This document shows, one piece after another, positions 1 through 31,271 of a stretch of DNA of 45,622 bases. Numbering within the stretch: position 1 is the first letter of the stretch; every line of letters starts with the position of its first letter. A program made the position numbers and the translations under genes. Origin of the DNA: Cytophagales bacterium (GTDB lineage Bacteria; Bacteroidota; Bacteroidia; Cytophagales; VRUD01); assembly GCA_019456305.1 (NCBI GenBank), contig VRUD01000029.1:1861-47482 (forward strand), in the 5' to 3' direction. The notes beneath the pieces were generated by a model that was given only the letters and a program-made list of their open reading frames with translations, ran no database searches and was not told where the DNA came from.

Positions 1-2280
1 ATGGATACTTCAATTGTAACAGATGAAATTTGCGGTAACGGGCAAGGGGCTGTTGATATAACTGTTTCAGGCGGAACAACACCTTACACTTTTACCTGGA
101 GCAATGGAGCAACTACAGAAGATATTAGTGGATTAAGTGCCGGTAATTACACTTGTCAAATAACTGATATTAACGGTTGTATTCTTAATCTGTCAGCAAC
201 TGTAACAAATGCTGTGGGAAGTTTAATTATGGATACTTCAATTGTAACAGATGAAATTTGCGGTAACGGGCAAGGGGCTGTTGATATAACTGTTTCAGGC
301 GGAACGACACCTTACATTTTTACCTGGAGCAATGGAGATACAACAGAAGATATTAGCGGATTAAGTGCCGGTAATTACACTTGTCAAATAACCGATTTTA
401 ACGGTTGCATTATTAATCTGTCAGCAACTGTAACAAATGCTGCAGGAAGTTTAATACTAAATAGTTCAATTGTAACGGATGAAATTTGCGGTAACGGACA
501 AGGGGCTGTTGATATCTCTGTTTCAGGCGGAACAACACCTTACACCTACCTCTGGAGTAATGGAGCAACTACAGAAGATATTAGTGGATTAAGTGCCGGT
601 AATTACACTTGTACAATTACTGATATTAATGGCTGTGTTATTAATATATCTGAAAATGTACTAAACCAAACAGGCACCTTTAGCTTAGACACCATTATTG
701 TAACATACGAAATTTGTGGTAACGGACAGGGCGTTATTGATATCACTGTTTCGGGTGGCATTTCACCTTATACGTATGCCTGGAGCAATGGGGCTACGAG
801 CGAAGATATCAACGGATTGAGTGCAGGAAATTATTCTGTCGTAATAACTGATAATAGCGGGTGTATTATTAATCAAACAGTTGATGTTTTAAATGCAACG
901 GGCACCTTTAGCTTAGACAATATAATTGTAACCGGTGAATATTGTGGTAATGGGCTGGGTGCTATAGATGTGACCATGTCGGGTGGAGTTACTCCCTACT
1001 CATTTACCTGGAGCAATGGAGCAGTTACTGAAGATATAACCGGATTAAGCGCTGGTAATTATACCTGTGTCATTACCGATAGCACGGGTTGTATTATCAA
1101 TACAGCAGGAGATGTATTAAACCAGACTTTTGGTTATAGTGTAGATTCCATAATTGCCATAGATGAAGTATGTAATAACGGACAAGGCGCTATAGATATA
1201 ACCGTTTCCGGGGGTTTTCCTCCATATACTTTTGCCTGGAGTAATGGAGGCACAACTGAAGATATTATTAATTTAACTGCGGGTAACTATACTTGTATCA
1301 TTACTGATAGCTTGGGATGTATTCTCAATACAGGTGGAACTGTTTTAAACGAAACACAAGGCTTTAATTTAGCCGCTGCAATTGTCACAGATGAAATATG
1401 TGGTAACGGGCAAGGCACTGTAGATATAACCGTTTCCGGGGGTGTTCTGCCTTATTCTTTCGCCTGGAGTAATGCAGCGACCACTGAAGATATAAACGGA
1501 TTAAGTGCCGGTAACTTTACAGTAACCATTACCGATTCATTGGGCTGTATTGCCGGTACAACAGTAACTGTACTAAACGATCCGGGGAACTTGATCATTA
1601 GTAACGTCACCATAACTGATGAAATTTGCGGCAACGGAAGTGGCGCTATTGACATTACTGTTTCAGGAGGGTATGCTCCCTATACTTTTATATGGAGTAA
1701 TGGAGCTGTTACAGAGGATATTACAGGATTGAGTGCAGATACTTTTACTGTTACCGTTACTGATTCAAATGGATGTGTAAGCGGTACTACCATTACTGTC
1801 TTAAATAGTCCAGGCACCTTAACCATCAGCAATGTAGGGATCACAGATGAAGTATGTGGCAATGGAGCAGGCGCTGTTGACATTACCATTTCAGGCGGAT
1901 CTGCTCCTTATACTTTTGTGTGGAGCAATGGAACTGTTACAGAGGATATTACAGGATTGAGTGCAGATACTTTTACTGTTACAATTACCGATTCAAACGG
2001 TTGTATTACCGATACTTCCGTAACCGTACTGAACAGTCCCGGAACATTAAGTATGACCATTACGGGTATAACGGACGATAATTGCGGCTATGGCATTGGT
2101 GCTATAGATATTACCGTTACCGGTGGCAATGCACCCTATAATTTCATCTGGAGCAATGGAGCAACCACTGAGGATATTAGCGGGTTAGATACAGGAATAT
2201 ATACTGTAATTGTTACAGACAACAACGGCTGCCTGGTAACAGAAAGCGCCACTATTAATGATTCCACCGGGGGGCCGCCA
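1..2280 (+). repeat. Ten tandem 228-bp coding repeats
   Basis: The repeat period is exactly 228 bp (76 codons): ATGGATACTTCA recurs at 1 and 229, and the third unit begins at 457. Units 1 to 3 are nearly identical in DNA while units 4 to 10 diverge progressively, which suggests recent duplication at the 5' side. The array probably continues left of the window. Confidence 0.9.
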
Positions 2281-2829
2281 CTGACAAGTAATATAATTGG
2301 ATTTACAACTGTAAGTGAATTTGCCATAGAAAATTATTCTGTTGCGCTTAATGCAGGGTCCGAATATTATTGGGCTGTTACCGGTGGTAATCAAATAAGC
2401 GGTGGCTTAACAAATGCGATCGGTGTATATTGGGGCGCTGCGGGTACGGGATTGTTGTCTGTTGTTGAAAAAAGCAGTAACGGGTGTTTTGGTGATACGA
2501 TTTATTTGACTGTAAATATAGGTGGAACGGGTATAAATATTGAAGATACTTCACTTATTTCAGTAAAAGTTTATCCAAATCCAAATACAGGAACCTTCAC
2601 CCTGGAATTACAGATAATAGAAGAACAGAATGTACAGTTAAAGATCATAAATATCCTTGGCATTGAGGTATTTTCGGAGGAGCTAATAATGGGTTCCCGG
2701 AACTTGCCGGGACGGGTAGAAATTTATCACAAGGTAATTGATTTTAAAAAATACGCAAGTGGGATTTATCAATTGCGAATAGTTACAGATCAAGGAGTTA
2801 TAACGAGACATATAACTATAAATAAATAA
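1..2829 (+). CDS. SprB-repeat surface protein with T9SS sorting domain (5' partial)
   Basis: This is the C-terminal 942 residues of a large secreted protein; the frame is open at the window edge, and the first Met is an internal repeat residue, so no signal peptide is seen. Residues 1-760 are ten 76-residue SprB-type repeats, each with a GNGxGxxDITVSGG core, a PYxFxWSNG segment, an SAGNYTxxITDxxGC segment and two Cys. Residues about 765-850 form a PKD-like beta domain (YYWAVTGGNQISGG). The last 90 residues are a type A T9SS sorting domain that begins VYPNPNTG and ends near GIYQLRIV. SprB repeats occur in gliding adhesins, so a surface-attached, adhesin-like role is inferred. A 6-bp-armed palindrome (2695-2712) adds a short MGSRNLPGR-like segment inside the sorting domain. 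The next gene starts 15 bp downstream and has a related C-terminus. Confidence 0.88.
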   Translation: MDTSIVTDEICGNGQGAVDITVSGGTTPYTFTWSNGATTEDISGLSAGNYTCQITDINGCILNLSATVTNAVGSLIMDTSIVTDEICGNGQGAVDITVSGGTTPYIFTWSNGDTTEDISGLSAGNYTCQITDFNGCIINLSATVTNAAGSLILNSSIVTDEICGNGQGAVDISVSGGTTPYTYLWSNGATTEDISGLSAGNYTCTITDINGCVINISENVLNQTGTFSLDTIIVTYEICGNGQGVIDITVSGGISPYTYAWSNGATSEDINGLSAGNYSVVITDNSGCIINQTVDVLNATGTFSLDNIIVTGEYCGNGLGAIDVTMSGGVTPYSFTWSNGAVTEDITGLSAGNYTCVITDSTGCIINTAGDVLNQTFGYSVDSIIAIDEVCNNGQGAIDITVSGGFPPYTFAWSNGGTTEDIINLTAGNYTCIITDSLGCILNTGGTVLNETQGFNLAAAIVTDEICGNGQGTVDITVSGGVLPYSFAWSNAATTEDINGLSAGNFTVTITDSLGCIAGTTVTVLNDPGNLIISNVTITDEICGNGSGAIDITVSGGYAPYTFIWSNGAVTEDITGLSADTFTVTVTDSNGCVSGTTITVLNSPGTLTISNVGITDEVCGNGAGAVDITISGGSAPYTFVWSNGTVTEDITGLSADTFTVTITDSNGCITDTSVTVLNSPGTLSMTITGITDDNCGYGIGAIDITVTGGNAPYNFIWSNGATTEDISGLDTGIYTVIVTDNNGCLVTESATINDSTGGPPLTSNIIGFTTVSEFAIENYSVALNAGSEYYWAVTGGNQISGGLTNAIGVYWGAAGTGLLSVVEKSSNGCFGDTIYLTVNIGGTGINIEDTSLISVKVYPNPNTGTFTLELQIIEEQNVQLKIINILGIEVFSEELIMGSRNLPGRVEIYHKVIDFKKYASGIYQLRIVTDQGVITRHITINK

Positions 2830-2844
2830 TAAATAATAACAATC

Positions 2845-5800
2845 ATGAACAGGCTATTACTGATTTTTTTCGTATGGTTTGTCTCTTTTCAGTTTTTATT
2901 CCTGATACAAGCCAATTCGCAAACTACTATATTCACAGTAGGTACAGCAAATACCACCACCTCAGGTACAGGAGAAACCCCTTTTGGAACCTTTTATGAG
3001 GATAACAAAAATCAGATACTGTTCCTTGCCTCCGAGCTTCAGGCGCTTGGAATGGGGCCTGGAAATATTTATTCAATTGCTCTCAATGTTTCAACTGCAG
3101 CAGCTCAGACAATGAATGGATTTAAAGTTCTGATAAAAACCACCACTTCTACTGCAGTGACAAGCTGGGAAACCGGGCTGATTCCGGTTTTTTTAGGTAA
3201 TCATACTGCCACAACGGGCTGGAATACTTTTACATTTTCTACACCATTTTTCTGGGATGGTGTTTCCAACATTTTAATTCAAACATGCTTTGATAATAAT
3301 AACTGGACGAGCAATTCCTCTGTTTTTTATACCGCAACAACATTTAATTCAAATGGTTACCGGTATTGTGATTCGTGTGTCCCTGATATCTGTATTGATA
3401 TGACGTTTACAGCCGGTACACTTCAAAGACCTAATACACGGTTTGAATATGCTCCATTAACTGATATTGACGCTGGTATCACTCAAATAACTTCCCCGGT
3501 TTTGGGATGCGGCTCAGCAGTATTTGAAGATGTCTCTGTAATTATTGAAAATTTTGGCTTAGATACCATTTCCACACTTGACGTATCTTATACAGTCAAT
3601 GGTGGAGTACCAGTTACCGAAAATATAAGTACCACTATTCTTCCGGGAAACAACTTTACCCATACATTTGCAACTCAAGCCAATTTAGGTACTTTCGGAA
3701 CTTATACTTTTGATGCCTGGGCAACACTGGCTGGAGATACCAATAATATAAACGACAGCATTACAAATTACCAGGTTTTACGCGACTCTATTTTTATATT
3801 TGTAGAAAATATTTGTATACATGATGCTCCGGGCGGAGCAGGTAGCTGCAACTTTTCCAATGATCTATGTAATGACGGTAATGATTTTGGAGATATCACA
3901 CTAAAAACATCACCCTTATTTTTCATTAATACCCCAACCGTTGATTCCATAACCTTCTATTTATATTATACTGATTGTAGTTTTAGCACAAACGATTTTA
4001 CATTTTATCTGAATAGTACACAAATTGGTACATTCACAAATACAATCCTGGAATGTGTATGTGCTCCATCATTGGGAACTTACCCATACATATTTAGCAT
4101 CACTGATACAGCTGTTTTAAACGCTGCATGGAGTGATACAAGTACACTTGGCGTTCAACATAATAATATTGATATGGCAGCAGCCGGCTATGCTGCGACA
4201 GTTTATTCTCAAGTTCAATGTCCTCTGCTAACAGCTATTGAAGTTGCTAATGATACTAGCATTTGCATAGGTGACTCTATTTTGTTAAGCGTTGCCATAA
4301 TTGATTCAAATATTTTGGTACCTCCTTACAGCTATTCATGGATTCCCTCAACGGGTTTGAGCTGTGATACCTGTCAAAGTCCACTAGCAAGTCCTTCTTC
4401 TACTATTACATATATGGTAATGGTAACCGATTCTACCGGCATTCAGGATTCTGCCTTTGTTACCGTAACGGTTTTCGTTGCTGCTCCGATTGCCAATGCA
4501 GGAACAGATACAACCATCTGCGAAGGGGATTTAATACAATTAAATGCTTCAGGTGGAGCAACCTATTTGTGGGACCCCGGTACAGGATTAAGTGATTCTA
4601 TAATAGCTAACCCATTGGCAAATCCTTCAACAACAACGACCTGGTCGCTAACAGCGATCAATGCCTGTGGCAGTGATATAGATTCAGTAACGGTATTTGT
4701 TAATCCGCTACCTGTTATAACCATTAGTTCAGATACTGGTATTTGTCCTGGTGATAGCGTGCAATTAAGTGCAAGCGGAGGTGTTTCATATTCCTGGAAC
4801 CCAACTTTGGGATTAGATAATCCTAATATTGCAAATCCCATAGCAAATCCCTTTGTTACAACTACTTATATTGTAGCTGTTACTTCTGACTCTGGTTGTA
4901 CAGATTTTGCCACAGTGATAGTAATGGTAGATAGTGTTGCACAGCTAGTTGCTATTGCAGTTAAAGATACGATTTGTCTTGGAGATAGTACTCAATTATT
5001 TGCAAATTCTTGTCCACCGATGAATGATGATTTTGACCCGAATATCGATTTTGCTCTTTGGTCGGGCATTACAGGTGGAGCAGCAACTATTGATTGCGGA
5101 TCGGTAAGTGGTTTTGCTTTATATTTTAATGGTTCCACAACGCGCGAAGCGATAACACAAAACCTGAATGTATTGGCGGGCGGTAACATCAACTTTTACC
5201 TCAAAATCGGATCAGGCGCTCCTCCTTGTGAAACAGCTGATGCCGGTGAGGATATCGTGCTTGAATATTCAACCGATAACGGTATTACCTGGAACAATAT
5301 CAATACATATTTTACCGGTGGATATGTCACTTTTACAGCCATCAATGAAAATATGCCTGCCGGTGCTCAAACTGCAAGTACACAATTCAGATTTAAACAG
5401 ATTATGTTTTCTGGTTCCTGCTGTGACCACTGGGCTATTGATGATGTAAACATCGCCTGCAGTGGAGTAGATACTACTTTGAGCTTTACATGGAATCCTT
5501 CGACCGGCTTATCCAACCCAAATATTTCCAATCCGTTAGCCAGCCCTTCTTCCACCACTACTTATGTGGTAGAGGCAGCTATTGGTACTTGTTCAAGCTT
5601 TGATACCATCACGATATATGTGGATACGGCAAATTTTATTGTTGCCAGCCCCGATACTGCTATTTGCTTTGGAGATAGCGTGCAATTAACTGCAACTGGA
5701 AGTGGAGCATATCTATGGTCTCCATCCACGGGACTAAGCTGTACCAATTGTCAAAGCCCTTATGCAAGCCCAACTGCTACCACAACTTATTATGTTACCA

Positions 5801-8352
5801 CTCCTGCTGGCTGTACCCCTATTGACAGCGTGACGGTTAGCATTGGCGGTGGTCCAATCATTGCTTCAGCCACAAGAGATTCAATTTGCCCGGGTGATAC
5901 TACTCAATTATTTGCCTATAGTTGCGCACCTGCACTTTTTTATGACGGTTTTGAAGACGGCACGTACAACAAATGGACTGACGCAGGCGGTGGCTATACC
6001 ATTACACCTACCACCTCAACGGCTGCCGTTGGAAACTACTCGCTTCAATTATCTGGTGGAAACTGGGCTTTTTATGATGGGGTATATACTAATTTTAATC
6101 CCGGCACTCCTGATTACGTTGGTTTTTATGTAAACGCCACATCCACTTTTAATTGGGATGCTGGAGTGACAATTGGTGATAACAATACGACAACTAATGG
6201 GGGTATAATAACCTTCTCTGCAGATTGGTCTGGATCTTTTAACATGAATGGAATTTTCAATGTATTTAATGCAAATCAATGGTATCATATAGAATGCCAA
6301 AATATTGACTATATCAATGTAACCTTTGATTACTATATAGATGGTGTTCTTATTCAAGCCAGTGTTCCATTCAATTCTACTACCTCAACAGATATTTCTC
6401 AAATTCACTTATTTAATGTACAACCTGGAAGTATTGCTTATTTTGATGATATTATTATAGGCGCTCCCTGTAGCGGAATTGATACCACCTTGTCTTATAC
6501 ATGGACACCCGCTGCCGGATTATCCAACCCAAATATTGCCGATCCGGTAGCAAATCCCACTACAACCACATCATATATTGTTGTTGCCTCGGGTGGCGGT
6601 TGTTCAGCAACGGATACTGTCACAATTTATACAACCACACTTAATGTTGTTGCTAATGCCAGCACATCCCTTATTTGTTCAGGGGATACAGCTCAATTAA
6701 ACGCTACGGCTAATATTGGAGGTACGTCCTTTTCATGGAACCCTCCTGCTGGATTGAGTTGTATTAATTGTCCTGACCCACTTGCAAATCCCGTGTCAAC
6801 CACCATGTATTATGTTACGGGAACATCGGGGTCATGCACTGACATGGATTCGGTTTTGATCACTTTCGGCACAGGACCAATAGCGCCTTCCTGTACTCCA
6901 ATAACTACCGCATATTGCTGCGGATATGGTATTTACAATGTTACTTTTAATACCATAAACAATACCACTGCCGATGGTATTGAGGGATACCAGGATTACA
7001 GTTGTTCAAATGCAACAAACGTAATTGTTGATCTGACCTATCCCATTTCCATACAAACAGGTGCAGGTGCAGGAAATGAAGAAAATGTAAGGATGTGGAT
7101 TGACTACAACAATGATGGTGTTTTTGATAATGATTCCACCACCGAGCTTGTTTTTTGGTCTGACAATGTTTTACAAAATCATTCCGGAAATATTACCATT
7201 CCTTTTTCTGCAGTGATAAACACACCTTTACGTATGCGGGTAGGGTCTGATATATGGTGGAATACTGCACCTGCACCATGCGTAAATGTTTGGCGTGGTC
7301 AGTTTGAAGATTATTCTGTTGTTATACTGCCCAATACCATCCCTCCGGTAGCTGATTTCTCTATTAATATATTAGACATGTGCCAGGGAATCGTAAGCTT
7401 TACAGATCAATCATTATACAACCCCACTTCCTGGTTTTGGGATTTTGGTGATGGTATTGGACTCTCTGCGTCTCAAAATCCATTTTATGCATACAGTTTA
7501 CCAGGCATTTATACCGTAACCTTAATTGTGACTAATCTTTATGGAAGTGATACCCTATCACAGCTAATCACAATAAACTCTCTAACGGGTAGCTTTACTA
7601 TGAGCAACGATACGGTTAATATTGGTGTAGTTGTGAACTTTTTTGACAATAGTACTGGAGCTGATTCATGGAACTGGGATTTTGGAGACGGATTTTCTTC
7701 AATAATTCAAAATACTTTCCATGCTTATTTTTCAGTGGGGACCTATCCTGTAACTTTAACTGTTACCAACGCATCAGGTTGTATTGCACAAATAGTACAG
7801 CAAATAGTTGTAATTGATTGTGACGTAGGCCCGCAGACCGGTACTATTACCGGACCTTCCAATGTGAATGAATCTGCTACCGAGTTTTATTCGGTCACAT
7901 TTCACGTTGGCTCAACGTATAGCTGGACAATTATTGGCGGAAATCAAACGAGCGGAGGCACAACTAATTTCATCACTGTACAATGGGGACCTTCCGGGAG
8001 CGGGCAAATAATCGTTGTTGAGATGGACAGTTTGGGATGTGCGGGGAATACTGTTAGTTTGATCGTTAATATAGGCCCTACTGGTACATTTGAAAATGAA
8101 ATAGCTAAGCAAATGAATCTATATCCAAATCCAAATACAGGGAAGTTTATATTAGAAGTTTACGATTTAAGTCCTGAGAACCCGGGATACGATTGCTTTA
8201 TTTATAATTTTTTAGGACGTGAAATAACCAAATTTAAGATCATAGATCAAAAAACCGAGATTGATTTGAAGGGGTATGCAAAAGGGATTTATTATTTAAA
8301 AGTGGTATCCGATGGAAAGGGAGCGATAAACAGGAAAGTGGTGATAGAATAA
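2845..8352 (+). CDS. Giant multidomain T9SS-secreted protein (reelin-like, GEVED, PKD)
   Basis: The protein has 1835 residues with an N-terminal signal peptide (hydrophobic residues 3-22, cut near NSQ). After a beta-rich N-terminal domain (about 30-200) comes a CARDB-like domain (about 205-310). Several Ig/PKD-like units follow, each of the form DTxICxGDSxQL...W.P.TGLS.....PxASPxxTTTY. Between them sit a reelin-type jelly-roll (about 730-872, with YSTDNGITW and CCDHWAIDDV) and a DGFEDG lectin-like domain (about 1030-1210). A GEVED domain (about 1355-1495, WIDYNNDG and FEDYSV) precedes two PKD domains (WFWDFGDG, WNWDFGDG). The T9SS type A sorting domain starts at about 1757 (LYPNPNTG). Such architectures are typical of exported adhesins or matrix proteins; no catalytic domain was recognised. 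It lies 15 bp after the SprB-repeat gene and is probably co-transcribed with it. Confidence 0.87.
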   Translation: MNRLLLIFFVWFVSFQFLFLIQANSQTTIFTVGTANTTTSGTGETPFGTFYEDNKNQILFLASELQALGMGPGNIYSIALNVSTAAAQTMNGFKVLIKTTTSTAVTSWETGLIPVFLGNHTATTGWNTFTFSTPFFWDGVSNILIQTCFDNNNWTSNSSVFYTATTFNSNGYRYCDSCVPDICIDMTFTAGTLQRPNTRFEYAPLTDIDAGITQITSPVLGCGSAVFEDVSVIIENFGLDTISTLDVSYTVNGGVPVTENISTTILPGNNFTHTFATQANLGTFGTYTFDAWATLAGDTNNINDSITNYQVLRDSIFIFVENICIHDAPGGAGSCNFSNDLCNDGNDFGDITLKTSPLFFINTPTVDSITFYLYYTDCSFSTNDFTFYLNSTQIGTFTNTILECVCAPSLGTYPYIFSITDTAVLNAAWSDTSTLGVQHNNIDMAAAGYAATVYSQVQCPLLTAIEVANDTSICIGDSILLSVAIIDSNILVPPYSYSWIPSTGLSCDTCQSPLASPSSTITYMVMVTDSTGIQDSAFVTVTVFVAAPIANAGTDTTICEGDLIQLNASGGATYLWDPGTGLSDSIIANPLANPSTTTTWSLTAINACGSDIDSVTVFVNPLPVITISSDTGICPGDSVQLSASGGVSYSWNPTLGLDNPNIANPIANPFVTTTYIVAVTSDSGCTDFATVIVMVDSVAQLVAIAVKDTICLGDSTQLFANSCPPMNDDFDPNIDFALWSGITGGAATIDCGSVSGFALYFNGSTTREAITQNLNVLAGGNINFYLKIGSGAPPCETADAGEDIVLEYSTDNGITWNNINTYFTGGYVTFTAINENMPAGAQTASTQFRFKQIMFSGSCCDHWAIDDVNIACSGVDTTLSFTWNPSTGLSNPNISNPLASPSSTTTYVVEAAIGTCSSFDTITIYVDTANFIVASPDTAICFGDSVQLTATGSGAYLWSPSTGLSCTNCQSPYASPTATTTYYVTTPAGCTPIDSVTVSIGGGPIIASATRDSICPGDTTQLFAYSCAPALFYDGFEDGTYNKWTDAGGGYTITPTTSTAAVGNYSLQLSGGNWAFYDGVYTNFNPGTPDYVGFYVNATSTFNWDAGVTIGDNNTTTNGGIITFSADWSGSFNMNGIFNVFNANQWYHIECQNIDYINVTFDYYIDGVLIQASVPFNSTTSTDISQIHLFNVQPGSIAYFDDIIIGAPCSGIDTTLSYTWTPAAGLSNPNIADPVANPTTTTSYIVVASGGGCSATDTVTIYTTTLNVVANASTSLICSGDTAQLNATANIGGTSFSWNPPAGLSCINCPDPLANPVSTTMYYVTGTSGSCTDMDSVLITFGTGPIAPSCTPITTAYCCGYGIYNVTFNTINNTTADGIEGYQDYSCSNATNVIVDLTYPISIQTGAGAGNEENVRMWIDYNNDGVFDNDSTTELVFWSDNVLQNHSGNITIPFSAVINTPLRMRVGSDIWWNTAPAPCVNVWRGQFEDYSVVILPNTIPPVADFSINILDMCQGIVSFTDQSLYNPTSWFWDFGDGIGLSASQNPFYAYSLPGIYTVTLIVTNLYGSDTLSQLITINSLTGSFTMSNDTVNIGVVVNFFDNSTGADSWNWDFGDGFSSIIQNTFHAYFSVGTYPVTLTVTNASGCIAQIVQQIVVIDCDVGPQTGTITGPSNVNESATEFYSVTFHVGSTYSWTIIGGNQTSGGTTNFITVQWGPSGSGQIIVVEMDSLGCAGNTVSLIVNIGPTGTFENEIAKQMNLYPNPNTGKFILEVYDLSPENPGYDCFIYNFLGREITKFKIIDQKTEIDLKGYAKGIYYLKVVSDGKGAINRKVVIE

Positions 8353-14737: not shown

Positions 14738-16024
14738 CTATTTTTCCCTCTCCTTCCCTTCATCACCTTTTGGTATGGGCTGACCATGAGGGTCTTTTTG
14801 GGGATGCCCAAGCACCTGATCCACTTTTTCCAATATTTCTTCGGGCAGCAAATGCTCTATTTTTTCTGCCGGCTCATGCAGCTCTTCGGCTGGCAAGCCC
14901 ATTTTGGTGGCAAGGTATGTCTCCCATAGCCGGTGGGCTCTCACTAATTTAATGGCTTGATGATTTCCTTTTTCAGTAAGAACGATTTTATCTTTAGTGG
15001 TATTTATTAGTCTAAGACGTCTGAGATAAAGCAGGTGAATTTTAATTTTTGATAAAGAAATGTTCAGATAATCAACAATTGCTATGCGATTGACAGATCC
15101 CCCGGCTTTTATTTTGTAGTAGATCGTTTTTAATATATCCTGGTGATCTATAATAAATTGTTTTTTGAGCTTGCGGTATGAATTAATGAGAAAACCTTTT
15201 TTAGGAGAAAACAGCAGCGCAGCGCCAAAAAATAATACGGCCATCACGGTCATGGTCGGGCCGGGGGTTATTTCCAGTAATATGGCAATCAGCAAACCCG
15301 ATGTGGCTGAAAGTAACCCCAGAAAAGCTGAAATAATGATCATTACCTTCAGTTTGTCTGTTAACAGGTAGGCAGTAGAGGAAGGTACGATCAGCATTGC
15401 CACCACAAGGATCACGCCTACGGATTGCAGTGATGCCACAACGGAGAGTGATAGCAGGAACATCAAAAAGTAGTGGATCACCGCCACGGAAACGCCCATG
15501 GTTGCAGCAATTACAGGGTCAAAAGTTGTAATAAAGAAATATTTAAAAAAGAGGGTAATACAGATCAATACATAAATACCAATTAATGCAGTCAGCCACA
15601 GGTCGCCATTGGAGACACCCAGCACATTACCAAATAAAAAACCCTTCATATCAAGGTGTATACCTTCTTTTTTGGTGAGCCACGAGATGCCAATGATGCC
15701 CAGCGCAAACATCCCGGTGAATACGATCCCGATTGAAGAATCTTCTTTTGTGATCGAATTTCTCTGGATCCAGGTAATAAGGATGGCAGTAAATAATCCG
15801 GCTACAACCGCTCCAATAAAAATGGCTAATGGGTCATGGCCCCAGAAAATAAAACCAATGACTACCCCTGGCAACACTGCATGTGATAAAGCATCTCCGA
15901 TAAGCGCCATCCTTCTGAGTGTAACGAAACAGCCCAGTATGCCGCAGGTCATGCCCACTATAGATGAAGCGATCAGGGCACGGATTGAGTATTCGTATTG
16001 TAATATTTCAAATAGATCAGTCAT
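14738..16024 (-). CDS. Metal ABC transporter permease fused to a DtxR/MntR-like sensor domain
   Basis: Residues 1-275 form an ABC-3 family (ZnuB/MntB/TroC type) inner-membrane permease with about eight hydrophobic segments and the family motifs RRMALIGDALSHAVLPGV and VGVILVVAMLIVPSSTA. Residues about 290-428 are unlike a permease. They form a winged helix (VDYLNISLSKIKIHLLYLRR) followed by the DtxR-family dimerisation and metal-binding helices, RAHRLWETYLATKMGLP and ELHEPAEKIEH. These end in the family tail HPQKDPHGQPIP. The likely metal ligands H364, E368, H383 and H391 are kept. The cytoplasmic tail could sense metal and gate transport, or could bind DNA; this is inference. The gene is third in the operon, 166 bp after the SBP-ATPase gene, with a repeat in the gap. 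No internal stop or frameshift is seen. Confidence 0.85.
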   Translation of the reverse strand: MTDLFEILQYEYSIRALIASSIVGMTCGILGCFVTLRRMALIGDALSHAVLPGVVIGFIFWGHDPLAIFIGAVVAGLFTAILITWIQRNSITKEDSSIGIVFTGMFALGIIGISWLTKKEGIHLDMKGFLFGNVLGVSNGDLWLTALIGIYVLICITLFFKYFFITTFDPVIAATMGVSVAVIHYFLMFLLSLSVVASLQSVGVILVVAMLIVPSSTAYLLTDKLKVMIIISAFLGLLSATSGLLIAILLEITPGPTMTVMAVLFFGAALLFSPKKGFLINSYRKLKKQFIIDHQDILKTIYYKIKAGGSVNRIAIVDYLNISLSKIKIHLLYLRRLRLINTTKDKIVLTEKGNHQAIKLVRAHRLWETYLATKMGLPAEELHEPAEKIEHLLPEEILEKVDQVLGHPQKDPHGQPIPKGDEGKEREK

Positions 16025-16190: not shown

Positions 16191-17969
16191 TCACTCATAA
16201 ACATACTTCTCAGTCTCCTGCAAAATAGTAAGCCGTGCGGCATAAGTAGCCGTTATATTTTGCTGGGTAAATACATCTTTAGTTTTTCCAAATGCTATCA
16301 ACCACTGATTGAGCATGATCACGTAGTCAAAGTAATCCTTCACTTTTGCCAGGTCGTGCTGAATGAGCACGATTGTTTTGTTTTGTTGTGCCAGGTCTTT
16401 GATAATTTGAACGATCTTCTCCTCGGTTTTTATATCAACGCCCACGAAAGGCTCATCAAACAAGAGGATTTCAGCTTGCTGGCAAAGCGCCCTTGCTATA
16501 AAAACCCTTTGCTGCTGCCCGCCTGAAAGGTCGGAGATCTGGCGGTCAACATATTCGCTGATCCCCACTGTTTCCATAGCGTTTGAGCAGATTGACCTGT
16601 CATCACTGTTAAATCTTTCAAATTGTCTTTTATGGGGCAGCCTGCCGGTGATCACGATATCTTCGACTGTAGCCGGGAATGCCCAGTCAATTTCCTCTTT
16701 TTGAGGGATATAGGCGATCTTATCCCTGACTTCATCAATAGATCTGCCGTTTATTTTAATACAACCATTGTCAATGGGGATCAATCCGAGTATAGATTTT
16801 AAAAGGGTGGATTTGCCAGCGCCATTGGGCCCTATCAAGCCGTATAGTTTACCTGATTCGATAGAAAGGGTAATATTTGATAGAACGGTTTTTCTTTGAT
16901 AGGAGACAGATATTTTATTGATATCTATGTTATAATGATCCCAATTATTGCTCTGGGTAGAATTCGGAGCAATTTGTTTTATTTTTAGGAAAACCCATAA
17001 AAATCCTATCCCAAAAAGTAATCCCACTGCAATAAACAAAGGCAGCAGTGTTCTTTTACGTTCCGTATTACGATTGCCAGTCATAGTCAATGCAGTGACG
17101 ATGGTATCGGTGTTTTGTTTTAACATTTTCAGATAAGTATCTGCCCCGCTTTCTTCATCGCCCAACGAATCCGCAAAAAGCTTTCCCCCGATAACAACGC
17201 CATGATCTTTAGCCAACTGTCTTAAAAGTTTCGGATTGATGGTTGATTCCATGAATATTGCACTGATCCCTGTGGTTTTGATCACGTTTATGATATTATT
17301 AACGTCTCCGATCTGTACTTCAGCATCCGTTGAAATGCCCATAAGCGCTTCAACCCTGACACCATATCTACTTCCATAATACCTGAAAGCGTCATGAGAA
17401 GTGATCAACACCCTTTTTTGCTCAGGAATTGTATAGATATTATTCTTTATGTAGCTATCCAGCTCAATAAGCTCTTGTTTGTAGCGAGTAAAGTTTTCAG
17501 TATAATAGCCGGCATTTTTTGCATCTAATTGAATAAAAGTATTTTTGATATTACGGGCAAATTCAATAACCAATATGGGGTCCATCCATGCATGCGGGTC
17601 AGGGGAGCCATGGAAAGCTTCGCTGACAAATGGTTTTATACCCTTAGTAACAACAACAATTGGGCGATTCCCCCCTGCATTTTCAATAATTTCATCCAGC
17701 CAGCCTTCCAGCATAAGCCCGTTTTTCAGCACTACGTCTGATTCTACTACTTTTTGAGCATCTCCCGGAACGGGATCATAAAGATGTGGGTCACCTCCTA
17801 CAGGCATCAGGCAGTTCACTTCAATTTTGTTGCCTGCAATATTTATTGCAATGTCATAGATGATGGTTGTTGTAGCCAGCGCTTTGATCTTTTTTATTCC
17901 TGAACTCCCTGTAGAGTAGGGTAGAAGTATTAACAAAAAGAGTAAAAATATGACCAGTTTCTTTATCAT
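16191..17969 (-). CDS. Fused metal substrate-binding protein, membrane helix and ABC ATPase
   Basis: One 592-residue chain carries two normally separate subunits of a Zn/Mn/Fe importer. Residues 1-22 are a signal segment. Residues 25-296 are a cluster A-I (TroA/ZnuA/MntA) binding protein with predicted metal ligands H62 (DPHLYDP), H126 (DPHAWMD), H192 (TSHDAFRYYG) and D267 (ADSLGD), a TroA-like His3Asp set. Residues 307-330 form a strong transmembrane helix. Residues 346-590 are a complete ATPase with Walker A GPNGAGKST (380-388), a Q-loop at 423, LSGGQ (481-485), Walker B ILLFDEP (501-507) and the switch H538. The topology fits: binding domain outside, ATPase inside. It starts 12 bp after the regulator gene and is followed by the permease, so two polypeptides would make the transporter. 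I know these domains as separate proteins; the fusion is the unusual part. The frame is clean throughout. Confidence 0.9.
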   Translation of the reverse strand: MIKKLVIFLLFLLILLPYSTGSSGIKKIKALATTTIIYDIAINIAGNKIEVNCLMPVGGDPHLYDPVPGDAQKVVESDVVLKNGLMLEGWLDEIIENAGGNRPIVVVTKGIKPFVSEAFHGSPDPHAWMDPILVIEFARNIKNTFIQLDAKNAGYYTENFTRYKQELIELDSYIKNNIYTIPEQKRVLITSHDAFRYYGSRYGVRVEALMGISTDAEVQIGDVNNIINVIKTTGISAIFMESTINPKLLRQLAKDHGVVIGGKLFADSLGDEESGADTYLKMLKQNTDTIVTALTMTGNRNTERKRTLLPLFIAVGLLFGIGFLWVFLKIKQIAPNSTQSNNWDHYNIDINKISVSYQRKTVLSNITLSIESGKLYGLIGPNGAGKSTLLKSILGLIPIDNGCIKINGRSIDEVRDKIAYIPQKEEIDWAFPATVEDIVITGRLPHKRQFERFNSDDRSICSNAMETVGISEYVDRQISDLSGGQQQRVFIARALCQQAEILLFDEPFVGVDIKTEEKIVQIIKDLAQQNKTIVLIQHDLAKVKDYFDYVIMLNQWLIAFGKTKDVFTQQNITATYAARLTILQETEKYVYE

Positions 17970-17981
17970 AAATTCAATATT

Positions 17982-18641
17982 TCAATCTGTAACAAAAATG
18001 TTATCCGATACTTTTTGCGATACGATGAGTGTTTTTTTGTTATCAATCTCAATTTCAACAGACCCGTCAAATTCAATTTTATCCAGAACTTTGATCTTTG
18101 CACCTAAATGGATCCCGGATTTATCAAGGTATTTGAGAAATGAAGAGGTTGATTCTTTAACTCCCACAACAATACCTTCATTATTTAGTGATAATTCAGT
18201 CAGGGGGATTTTATTCTTTGCTTTAATTTGACCATTTGCATCCGGTATTGGGTCTCCATGCGGGTCATATTGCGGAAAACCAAGAAATTCATCCATGCGT
18301 TCTACGAGATAATTTGATCTTATATGTTCCAGTTCCTCTGCTACTTCATGAACTTCGTCCCAGTTAAATTTTAGCTTTTCTACCAGAAATACTTCCCACA
18401 AACGATGTTTCCGGATGACTTGTAAAGCTGTTTTTATGCCTTCTTTTGTAACGGTCAGCCCCTTATATTTTTCATAATTGATCAGATTCTTTTGAGACAG
18501 CTTTTTCAGCATATCACTTACCGAAGCCGGCTTCGTGTTCATTGACTCTGATATGGAGTTTGTAGATACTTCTTTATCACCACCACCGGCTAAATGGTAG
18601 ATGGCTTTCAGGTAGTTTTCTTCTGTGTAGGTTAGTGTCAT
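17982..18641 (-). CDS. DtxR/MntR-family metal-dependent transcriptional regulator
   Basis: The 219-residue repressor is predicted to bind DNA when loaded with Fe2+ or Mn2+. The winged-helix domain (1-70) has the recognition region SMNTKPASVSDMLKKL. The dimerisation/metal domain carries H79, E83, H98, E102, E105 and H106, matching DtxR positions except that Cys102 is Glu, as in MntR-type proteins. At the position that distinguishes DtxR (Met10) from MntR (Asp8) it has Asn9, so the metal cannot be assigned. The C-terminal part (about 140-219) is an SH3-like FeoA domain. It is first in the metal-import operon, 12 bp before the SBP-ATPase gene. Palindromic boxes near its promoter suggest autoregulation. 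Confidence 0.9.
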   Translation of the reverse strand: MTLTYTEENYLKAIYHLAGGGDKEVSTNSISESMNTKPASVSDMLKKLSQKNLINYEKYKGLTVTKEGIKTALQVIRKHRLWEVFLVEKLKFNWDEVHEVAEELEHIRSNYLVERMDEFLGFPQYDPHGDPIPDANGQIKAKNKIPLTELSLNNEGIVVGVKESTSSFLKYLDKSGIHLGAKIKVLDKIEFDGSVEIEIDNKKTLIVSQKVSDNIFVTD

Positions 18642-18648
18642 GAAATCT

Positions 18649-18745
18649 AACTTTCCTAAACTTCTGGGTTTAGGAAAGTTTTTATAATTTGCAAAGTTAA
18701 TAAAAATTTAGATTAATCTAAAAATATTTTTAGAATATGTCTAAC
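18649..18745 (-). promoter_or_regulatory. Promoter and operator boxes of the metal-import operon
   Basis: Reading the minus strand, a Bacteroidetes -7 element TAACTTTG lies at 18699-18692. Directly upstream is a perfect 16-bp palindrome TTTAGATTAATCTAAA (18707-18722). A second box, TTTAGA-ATATG-TCTAAC (18729-18745), lies 22 bp further, two helix turns away. They resemble MntR/SirR-type operators. Between promoter and start codon, 13-bp arms AACTTTCCTAAAC and GTTTAGGAAAGTT (18649-18680, 6-base loop) could be another site or an RNA hairpin covering the AGGAAAG sequence near the ATG. Confidence 0.6.
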
Positions 18746-28753: not shown

Positions 28754-30394
28754 CTATTTACATATTTGTTTAATTACTTTTTTATACGCTTTATAATAAC
28801 CAAGCTCACCGGCTTTACTCAAATCCAAACAAGCGCCTGTTATATCATCTAACATAACTTTTGCAAGACCTCTGTTTAAATAAGCCTTTGCAAAATCAGG
28901 TTTTAGCTCAATCGCTTTATTATAATCTTTTATTGCTCCATAGCGACCCTCCAGGTCATCTTTAGCATTACCTCTGTTTAAATAAGCCCATGCAAAATCA
29001 GGCTTTAGTTCAATCGCTTTATTATAATCTTTTATTGCTCCAATGTAATCCTCCAGGTTATATTTAGCAAGACCTCTGTTACAATAAGCCTTTACAAAAT
29101 CAGGCTTTAGCTCAATCGCTTTATTATAATCTTTTATTGCTCCAATGTAATCCTCCAGTTTACCTTTAGCAAGACCTCTTTTAAAATAAGCCACTGTATA
29201 ATCAGGTTTTAGCTCAATCGCTTTATTATAATCTTTTATTGCTCCATAGTGATCCTCCAGGTCATCTTTAGCAACACCTCTGCCAAAATAAGCCTCTGCA
29301 TCATCAGGTTTTAGCTCAATCGCTTTATTATAATCTTTTATTGCTCCAATGTAATCCTCCAGGTTAACTTTAGCAACACCTCTCTCATAATAAGCCTCTG
29401 CATCATCAGGCTCTAGCTCAATCACTTTATTATAATCCTTTATTGCTCCATGGTAATCCTTTAGGTTATGTTTAGCAAGACCTCTGTTATAATAAGCCGA
29501 TGCAGAATCAGGCTTTAGCTCAATCGCTTTATTATAATCTTTTATTGCTCCATAGTAATCCTTTAGGTTATATTTAGCATTACCTCTGTTTAAATAAGCC
29601 AATGCAAAATCAGGTTTTAGCTCAATCGCTTTATTATAATCTTTTATTTCACCATAGTAATCCTCCAGGTTACCTTTAGCAAAACCTCTGTTATTATAAG
29701 CAAATGCATAATCAGGTTTTAGCTCAATCGCTTTATTATAATCTTTTATTGCTCCATAGTAATCCTCCAGTTTACGTTTAGCATTACCTCTGTTATAATA
29801 ACCCTTTGCAAAATCAGGCTTTAGCTCAATCGCTTTATCATAATCTTTTATTGCCCCATAGCGATCCTCCAGGTCATCTTTAGCATTACCTCTGTTTAAA
29901 TAAGCCTTTGCAAAATCAGGTTTTAGCTCAATCGCTTTATTAAAATCTTTTATTGCTCCATAGTAATCCTGTAGTTTATATTTAGCAATACCTCTGTTAT
30001 TATAAGCATCTGCAAAATCAGGCTTTAGCTCAATCGCTTTATTATAATCTTTTATTTCACCATAGTAATCCTTTAGGTTACCTTTAGCAACACCTCTGTA
30101 ATAATAAGCCTCTGCAAAATCAGGCTTTAGCTCAATCGCTTTATTATAATCTTTTATTGCTCCATAGTGATCCTCCAGGCTACCTTTAGCAAAACCTCTT
30201 ATAAAATAAGCATCCGCATAATCAGGTTTTAGCTCAATCGCTTTATTATAATCTTTTATTGCTCCATAGTAATCTCCTAATTCAACTTTAGTAACACCTC
30301 TGTCAATATAGGTATCTGCCTCATCACCTGTTTTTTGTGAATAAGCTGAAAAGCTAAAAAGAATCAGGAAAACGGATATTTGTATTTTTGTCAT
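28754..30394 (-). CDS. Secreted TPR protein with about fifteen near-identical 34-residue repeats
   Basis: A signal peptide (about 1-19, FLILFSFSAYSQ) precedes about fifteen canonical TPRs of the form DYYGAIKDYNKAIELKPDFAxAYxNRGxAKxxLE. The period is 102 bp and the units are very alike in DNA, so the copy number may vary between strains and could be mis-assembled. The C-terminal cap (GACLDLSKAGELGYYKAYKKVIKQICK) matches the paralogue at 30654-31271. Protein binding in the periplasm or at the outer membrane is inferred. It lies 17 bp before the AlbA_2 gene. Confidence 0.88.
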   Translation of the reverse strand: MTKIQISVFLILFSFSAYSQKTGDEADTYIDRGVTKVELGDYYGAIKDYNKAIELKPDYADAYFIRGFAKGSLEDHYGAIKDYNKAIELKPDFAEAYYYRGVAKGNLKDYYGEIKDYNKAIELKPDFADAYNNRGIAKYKLQDYYGAIKDFNKAIELKPDFAKAYLNRGNAKDDLEDRYGAIKDYDKAIELKPDFAKGYYNRGNAKRKLEDYYGAIKDYNKAIELKPDYAFAYNNRGFAKGNLEDYYGEIKDYNKAIELKPDFALAYLNRGNAKYNLKDYYGAIKDYNKAIELKPDSASAYYNRGLAKHNLKDYHGAIKDYNKVIELEPDDAEAYYERGVAKVNLEDYIGAIKDYNKAIELKPDDAEAYFGRGVAKDDLEDHYGAIKDYNKAIELKPDYTVAYFKRGLAKGKLEDYIGAIKDYNKAIELKPDFVKAYCNRGLAKYNLEDYIGAIKDYNKAIELKPDFAWAYLNRGNAKDDLEGRYGAIKDYNKAIELKPDFAKAYLNRGLAKVMLDDITGACLDLSKAGELGYYKAYKKVIKQICK

Positions 30395-30421
30395 AATGAT
30401 TTTGGTTTAATATACCAAATG

Positions 30422-30634
30422 TCACTTTGCTTCATACAAGTCTTCAATGTCTAATGAAGTAAATGTAGTTAATTCCTTGTCGTTTCATAGTCTTTACGAA
30501 GTATTTCAACTGCTTTTTTCATTTGATTTTTTATTTTCTCTATCTCGAAAAAACTTCAAAACTCTTTCAATAATTACCTTTCTGCCGGTAATTGGTAATT
30601 TTTCAATCTCTCTTATTAATTGTTGTGTTCCCAT
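30422..30634 (-). pseudogene. Frameshifted small antitoxin-like gene
   Basis: The ATG at 30634 opens MGTQQLIREIEKLPITGRK...; the frame then fails near an A6 run, continues in another frame as MKKAVEILRKDYE, and shifts again to DKELTTFTSLDIEDLYEAK with a stop at 30422. Together the parts give a 70-residue protein of a type common in Bacteroidetes next to toxin genes. No toxin is present. The two shifts cancel in length (213 bp). It lies between the two TPR paralogues. Confidence 0.55.
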
Positions 30635-30653
30635 TAGTCAAATATATTAATTT

Positions 30654-31271
30654 CTATTTACATAATTGTTTAATTACTTCATACGCTTCATAAACACCAA
30701 GCTCACCGGCTTTATTCATATCCAAACAAGCGCCTTTTTTATCTCCTAATGTATGTTTAGCAATACCTCTGATAAAATAAGCCCCTGCAAAATCAGGTTT
30801 TAGCTCAATCGCTTTATTAAAATCTTTTATTGCTCCATAGTGATCCTCCAGGATAGCTTTAATAGTACCTCTGTTACAATAAGCCCCTGCAAAATCAGGT
30901 TTTAGCTCAATCACTTTATTATAATCTTTTATTGCTCCATAGTGATCCTCCAGGTAACCTTTAGCATTACCTCTGTTATAATAAGCATCTGCAAAATCAG
31001 GCTTTAGCTCAATCGCTTTATTATAATCTTTTATTGCTCCATTGTAATCCTCCAGGTTACCTTTAGCAATGCCTCTGTTATAATAAGCCAATGCATAATC
31101 AGGTTTTAGCTCAATCGCTTTATTAAAATCTTTTATTGCTCCATAGTGATCTCCTAATTTACTTTTAGCAATACCTCTACTATTATAGGTATCTGCCTCA
31201 TCACCTGTTTTTTGTGAATAAGCTGAAAAGCTAAAAAGAATCAGAAAAACGGGTATTTGTAATTTTGTCAT
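30654..31271 (-). CDS. Short secreted TPR paralogue
   Basis: The 205-residue protein has the same signal peptide and start (MTKLQIPVFLILFSFSAYSQKTGDEADTY in pieces) and the same C-terminal cap (GACLDMNKAGELGVYEAY) as the longer TPR protein downstream. It has only about five TPR units. The two genes arose by duplication with a change in repeat number. The degraded antitoxin-like gene lies between them. Confidence 0.85.
   Translation of the reverse strand: MTKLQIPVFLILFSFSAYSQKTGDEADTYNSRGIAKSKLGDHYGAIKDFNKAIELKPDYALAYYNRGIAKGNLEDYNGAIKDYNKAIELKPDFADAYYNRGNAKGYLEDHYGAIKDYNKVIELKPDFAGAYCNRGTIKAILEDHYGAIKDFNKAIELKPDFAGAYFIRGIAKHTLGDKKGACLDMNKAGELGVYEAYEVIKQLCK

Follow-up and report, generated by a model that had tools for sequence, protein, structure and literature searches.

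The sole studied fusion of a metal permease to a DtxR-type domain is YtgCR of Chlamydia, a permease-repressor in which the tail is cleaved off and binds operators in an iron-dependent manner (PMC5599777, PMC7755916). YtgR is the only iron-dependent regulator identified in Chlamydia, and a review has suggested that a YtgCR-like mechanism may exist throughout bacteria. Orthologous permease-DtxR fusions have been reported in 11 phyla (PMC5599777, PMC7755916), and the fusion as such is already known and not new; the belief of an earlier note on this DNA, that related ABC-3/Fe_dep_repr combinations occur elsewhere, is borne out by YtgCR and by these fusions in many phyla. The studied fusion has been read as a transcription factor, whereas the large branch of fusions described here predicts the opposite, a direct and fast feedback valve on Mn/Fe import made from a retired repressor. 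A non-DNA-binding branch, a fixed coupling helix and a counterpart at FeoB were not found in our literature search, which covered few subscription papers, and a search on ABC-3/DtxR fusions by domain matched no paper.

We analysed a stretch of 45,622 nucleotides from a Cytophagales bacterium (contig VRUD01000029.1), which as a whole is here called the window. The fused permease gene and its parts are the following:

14738..16024, minus strand: permease fused to a DtxR-like tail, 428 aa (open reading frame, Pfam, model, 110 relatives)
15194..16024, minus strand: ABC-3 permease (residues 1-277), carrying the triad D44, H48, D95 for Mn transport (Pfam, PsaC fold, triad in 110/110)
15107..15193, minus strand: unbroken helix 278-306, from the last membrane segment to sensor helix 1 (secondary structure of the model, linker spacing)
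14975..15157, minus strand: winged-helix part, residues 290-350, without the DNA-recognition signature (IdeR fold match, signature 0/110, matched-identity test)
14768..14977, minus strand: Fe_dep_repr_C metal-binding/dimerisation domain, residues 350-419, with H364, E368, H383, E387, E390 and H391 (Pfam, conservation)

The open reading frame starts with ATG and has no internal stops. Pfam matched ABC-3 (PF00950) at residues 9-272 (1e-71) and Fe_dep_repr_C (PF02742) at 350-419 (2e-26) of the 428-residue protein; the N-terminal DNA-binding family PF01325 was not reached in the tail, and a FeoA domain is absent. An AlphaFold2 model of the monomer, built from a 40-sequence alignment of fusions, had a mean pLDDT of 90.1 and a pTM of 0.81. 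In the model, residues 285-423 superpose on IdeR 1-140 (Z 20.0, 1.8 A, 137 residues), the permease part superposes on PsaC (Z 35.9, 1.9 A), and the membrane part and sensor helix 1 are joined by the single unbroken helix 278-306. The Asp-His-Asp triad, which is required for Mn transport in B. anthracis MntC, is the same in all 110 fusions. The gene product is an ABC-3 metal permease of the MntC/PsaC type with a complete two-domain DtxR-like tail, in agreement with the earlier note, which had described a permease running into a winged helix and DtxR metal-binding helices. A chance pattern or a misassembly as the origin of the fusion is ruled out by the 110 relatives.

Seven residues of the tail, D296, H364, E368, H383, E387, E390 and H391, align with M10, H79, E83, H98, C102, E105 and H106 of IdeR, which we take to be the ligand positions of the DtxR family, and by this residue alignment all seven positions, at both metal sites, are kept in the window tail. 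The first inspection had named H364, E368, H383 and H391, and these residues are indeed found there, but it had missed E387, E390 and the helix-1 residue D296, the counterparts of IdeR C102, E105 and M10. Among the 110 fusions H364, E368, E390 and H391 are identical throughout, position 383 is H in 103 and D in 7, position 387 is mostly E or D, and position 296 is D, N or H; a metal-capable residue stands at all seven positions in 107 of the 110. With four residues invariant and seven positions metal-capable to this extent, the ligand pattern is not due to chance. The metal sensed would, to judge from sequence, be Mn or Fe(II), either or both. Elsewhere among the relatives, the first of two tandem permeases (L152:4701-5933) has an apparently degenerate tail with ligand residues missing, and the second permease keeps its ligands.

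The DNA-reading part was compared between the 110 related fusions, which come from several phyla, and 40 stand-alone DtxR proteins. In the stand-alone proteins the recognition helix carries a motif of the type PASVSDM and the wing is conserved, whereas in the fusions recognition helix and wing are near random except for the hydrophobic core, and the recognition-helix signature was present in 27/40 stand-alone proteins versus 0/110 fusions. Because the fusions span more phyla than the stand-alone set, pairs were also compared at equal identity of the metal domain. At a metal-domain identity of 0.6-0.7, the identity of the recognition helix was 0.65 for stand-alone proteins, 0.12 in the window's clade and 0.17 for fusions of the window's order, which indicates that the metal site is constrained and the DNA-reading face is not. 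The window tail has the fold and the ligands of a DtxR-family repressor and lacks the recognition-helix signature and the wing, and it is best explained as a descendant of a DtxR-type repressor without its former DNA-reading surface. The interpretation given in the earlier note is supported in part: a cytoplasmic DtxR-type metal site on the permease is supported, and conserved ligands together with lost DNA-reading features speak for a sensor acting locally more than for a repressor that is set free, whereas closure of the transporter by bound metal is a prediction. As has been shown for Chlamydia YtgCR, where the tail is released and binds operators in an Fe-dependent manner, the tail could instead be cleaved from the permease, or stay tethered, and act as a metal-dependent transcriptional repressor. 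The recognition helix of the fusions is still basic (mean +2.9 versus +1.3), which would suit such a repressor and counts against a direct sensor, but the signature missing from all 110 fusions and the randomness of the helix at matched divergence do not suit it.

The linker between membrane part and sensor also bears on a released repressor. The distance from G277, after the last membrane helix, to the D296 position is exactly 19 residues in every one of the 110 fusions. Elsewhere in the tail length is not fixed: the segment between helix 1 and the recognition helix differs by -9 to +8 and the wing by -4 to +4. Such constancy of the linker suggests rigid helical coupling of the membrane part to the sensor, and a rigid helix of fixed length, not a variable linker, argues against release of the tail. 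An internal translation start yielding a free tail was also considered and rejected for the window gene, as there is no ATG, GTG or TTG between residues 262 and 305. In the wider set, an ATG lies at most 25 residues before the D296 position in 32 of the 110 fusions, with an SD-like motif in 4.

The genes around the permease include a canonical regulator:

16191..17969, minus strand: substrate-binding protein (SBP, ZnuA type) fused to an ABC ATPase, 592 aa (Pfam; same fusion in relatives)
17982..18641, minus strand: stand-alone regulator of the DtxR/MntR type, in which the DNA-binding, metal-binding and FeoA domains are canonical (Pfam PF01325, PF02742, PF04023)
18707..18722, no strand: palindrome TTTAGATTAATCTAAA, likely operator of the stand-alone DtxR (position, conservation)

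The stand-alone DtxR, the SBP-ATPase and, as the last gene, the tailed permease probably form one operon, and in the whole genome only two proteins with PF02742 were found, the regulator and the tailed permease of this operon. The palindrome TTTAGATTAATCTAAA lies 66-81 bases upstream of dtxR and is weak on its own, with 0.19 expected in the window. Its form TTAG-N6-CTAA stands upstream of 23 of the 40 stand-alone dtxR genes, where 0.3 would be expected, and of 38/107 fusion genes (0.6 expected), solitary permease genes among them. From this position and conservation, it is likely that the stand-alone DtxR controls transcription via the palindrome at 18707. Three near-complete genomes have the fusion only and no stand-alone DtxR, which would leave room for a tail that represses transcription and again weighs against a direct sensor; however, the box was found upstream of the fusion gene in 0/3 of these genomes, and in the window operon a canonical DtxR with its box is already present. 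Together with the linker and the missing start codon, this makes a YtgCR-type repressor an unlikely account of the window tail.

Other features were seen in and around the operon. Directly upstream of the dtxR start codon, at 18649-18680, there is a perfect 13-bp inverted repeat (AACTTTCCTAAAC...GTTTAGGAAAGTT), terminator-like on the plus strand. The product of 16191-17969 is a single polypeptide made of a periplasmic SBP and a cytoplasmic ATPase, apparently joined by one membrane segment at about residues 303-326, and this unusual fusion occurs also in the relatives L036, L075, L110, L124, L125, L151 and L153-L156. Further away, window positions 1-8352 and 28754-31271 encode large surface-type proteins rich in repeats (SGG..PY..WSNG motifs) and also a pair of TPR-like proteins whose repeat units are nearly identical.

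In relatives the commonest gene order is dtxR, SBP, ATPase, tailed permease and second permease, and where the permease gene is solitary the SBP and ATPase genes lie elsewhere in the genome. Only one ABC-3 permease was matched in the window's genome, which makes a permease homodimer with two sensors likely. Of the heterodimeric relatives, most have a tail on one permease only, so that pairing of sensors inside a transporter cannot be a general feature; in some Planctomycetota and Latescibacterota both permeases are tailed, which speaks for a direct sensor. Within the phylum of the window, the relatives L174, L175, L178 and L188-L194 have two tandem permeases that both reach at least about 370-390 aa, and the tails of L174 and L175 have the winged helix without the metal-binding domain. 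In a tree rooted only for drawing, tail-less permeases nest inside the tailed clade, which suggests from the sequences that the tail has been lost in several close relatives. Such losses indicate that the core transporter can persist without the tail, and they fit a regulatory part and do not refute the sensor idea.

The fused and the stand-alone domains fall on opposite sides of one well-supported branch of the tree. Each of six tail-less genomes that were checked keeps one stand-alone DtxR and the three fusion-only genomes do without it, so neither needs the other, and the two have been gained and lost independently, a point in favour of the direct sensor. This distribution bears on the possibility that the tail pairs with the stand-alone DtxR via the dimerisation domain, so that transporter and repressor titrate each other and the repressor is sequestered at the membrane. 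The metal-binding/dimerisation domain is common to both proteins, they are often encoded in one operon, and transporters with a single tail would require a partner. But the retention of DtxR in tail-less genomes, the tails in genomes without DtxR and the clear separation of the two domain sets in the tree make such pairing improbable.

A second occurrence of the module was found beside another importer. In ten loci (L121:1035-2093, L179-L187) a gene for a protein with one membrane segment, the F.P..G motif and 19-residue linker of the permease tails, a DtxR-like sensor with its ligands, and FeoA domains (two by Pfam in those scanned) lies between a canonical dtxR and a split feoB. The linker spacing is 19 residues in 10/10 of these proteins; the glycine is present in nine, and one has K instead. 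In the tree they are set apart from stand-alone DtxR (97), and the exact placement relative to the ABC tails has weak resolution. FeoA of Bacteroides fragilis acts on the GTPase of FeoB (PMC8980893), which supports a role of the Feo-locus module at the transporter. Given its presence beside feoB as well, the unit of membrane segment, linker and sensor appears to be portable. The same module beside FeoB, together with the strictly constant helix length, argues for conformational coupling and against a tail that serves as a metal acceptor or activator, which would take incoming Mn/Fe at the channel exit or stabilise the complex and so promote transport. A conserved cytoplasmic metal site beside the channel would suit that role, and the winged-helix-only tails on both tandem permeases of some genomes imply that part of the tail may be structural; yet close relatives manage without the tail, and we give an acceptor or activator a low probability.

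It is rather likely that the tail senses Mn/Fe(II) in the cytoplasm and acts directly and allosterically on the importer, probably by feedback inhibition. The fusion, its fold, the conserved ligands, the lost DNA-reading signature, the fixed linker and the separate regulator with its box are computed results, from which we infer the metal, the dimer, the gating and its sign. In the transporter, two copies of the permease would pair up, each bringing a sensor to the side of the ATPase subunits. When cytoplasmic metal rises, metal would be bound between helix-1 D296 and E387/E390/H391, and H364/E368/H383 would form the second metal site. As D296 lies on the helix that is continuous with the end of the last membrane segment, bound metal may pull or turn this helix and/or pair the two sensors, and the helix movement and/or the sensor pairing would slow transport (trans-inhibition). 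Transcription would be handled apart. Against the direct sensor, besides the basic recognition helix and the three fusion-only genomes, stand the single tail of most heterodimeric relatives and, in some relatives, the winged-helix-only tails without the metal domain. More broadly, it is possible, though tentative, that a repressor came into use as a portable membrane module (last membrane segment, fixed 19-residue helix, DtxR-like sensor and often FeoA) which senses Fe/Mn in the cytoplasm and exerts direct gating on ABC-3 transporters and on FeoB, two importers unrelated to each other, and that many presumed permease-repressors are post-translational valves. If true, ABC-3 importers would have a mechanism of trans-inhibition that works by sensing metal, and FeoB would gain a candidate for its iron sensor.

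Compared with known systems, the window protein resembles YtgCR of Chlamydia trachomatis in that an ABC metal permease is extended at its C-terminus by a DtxR-like domain with metal ligands. In contrast, YtgR is cleaved off and binds operators, by which published description we set it apart, whereas the window tail is without the DNA-reading signature and its operon has a separate canonical DtxR at 17982-18641. With DtxR, IdeR and MntR the tail shares a fold of two domains (137 residues, Z 20.0 against IdeR) and the placing of the ligands, but it is tethered to the membrane and the recognition-helix signature is absent. The permease fold and the D-H-D triad are those of the PsaBC and MntBC Mn importers, although PsaC and MntC have no sensor tail. 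Like the trans-inhibited importers MetNI and ModBC, the window transporter would have a cytoplasmic domain that senses the imported substrate and slows transport; in those two the sensor, of unrelated fold, sits at the C-terminal end of the ATPase, while that of the window is on the permease. Finally, the likeness to FeoA/FeoB is the module of membrane segment, linker and DtxR-like sensor with FeoA that adjoins feoB in the 10 loci, where it is a separate subunit, whereas in the window it is a covalent part of the ABC permease.
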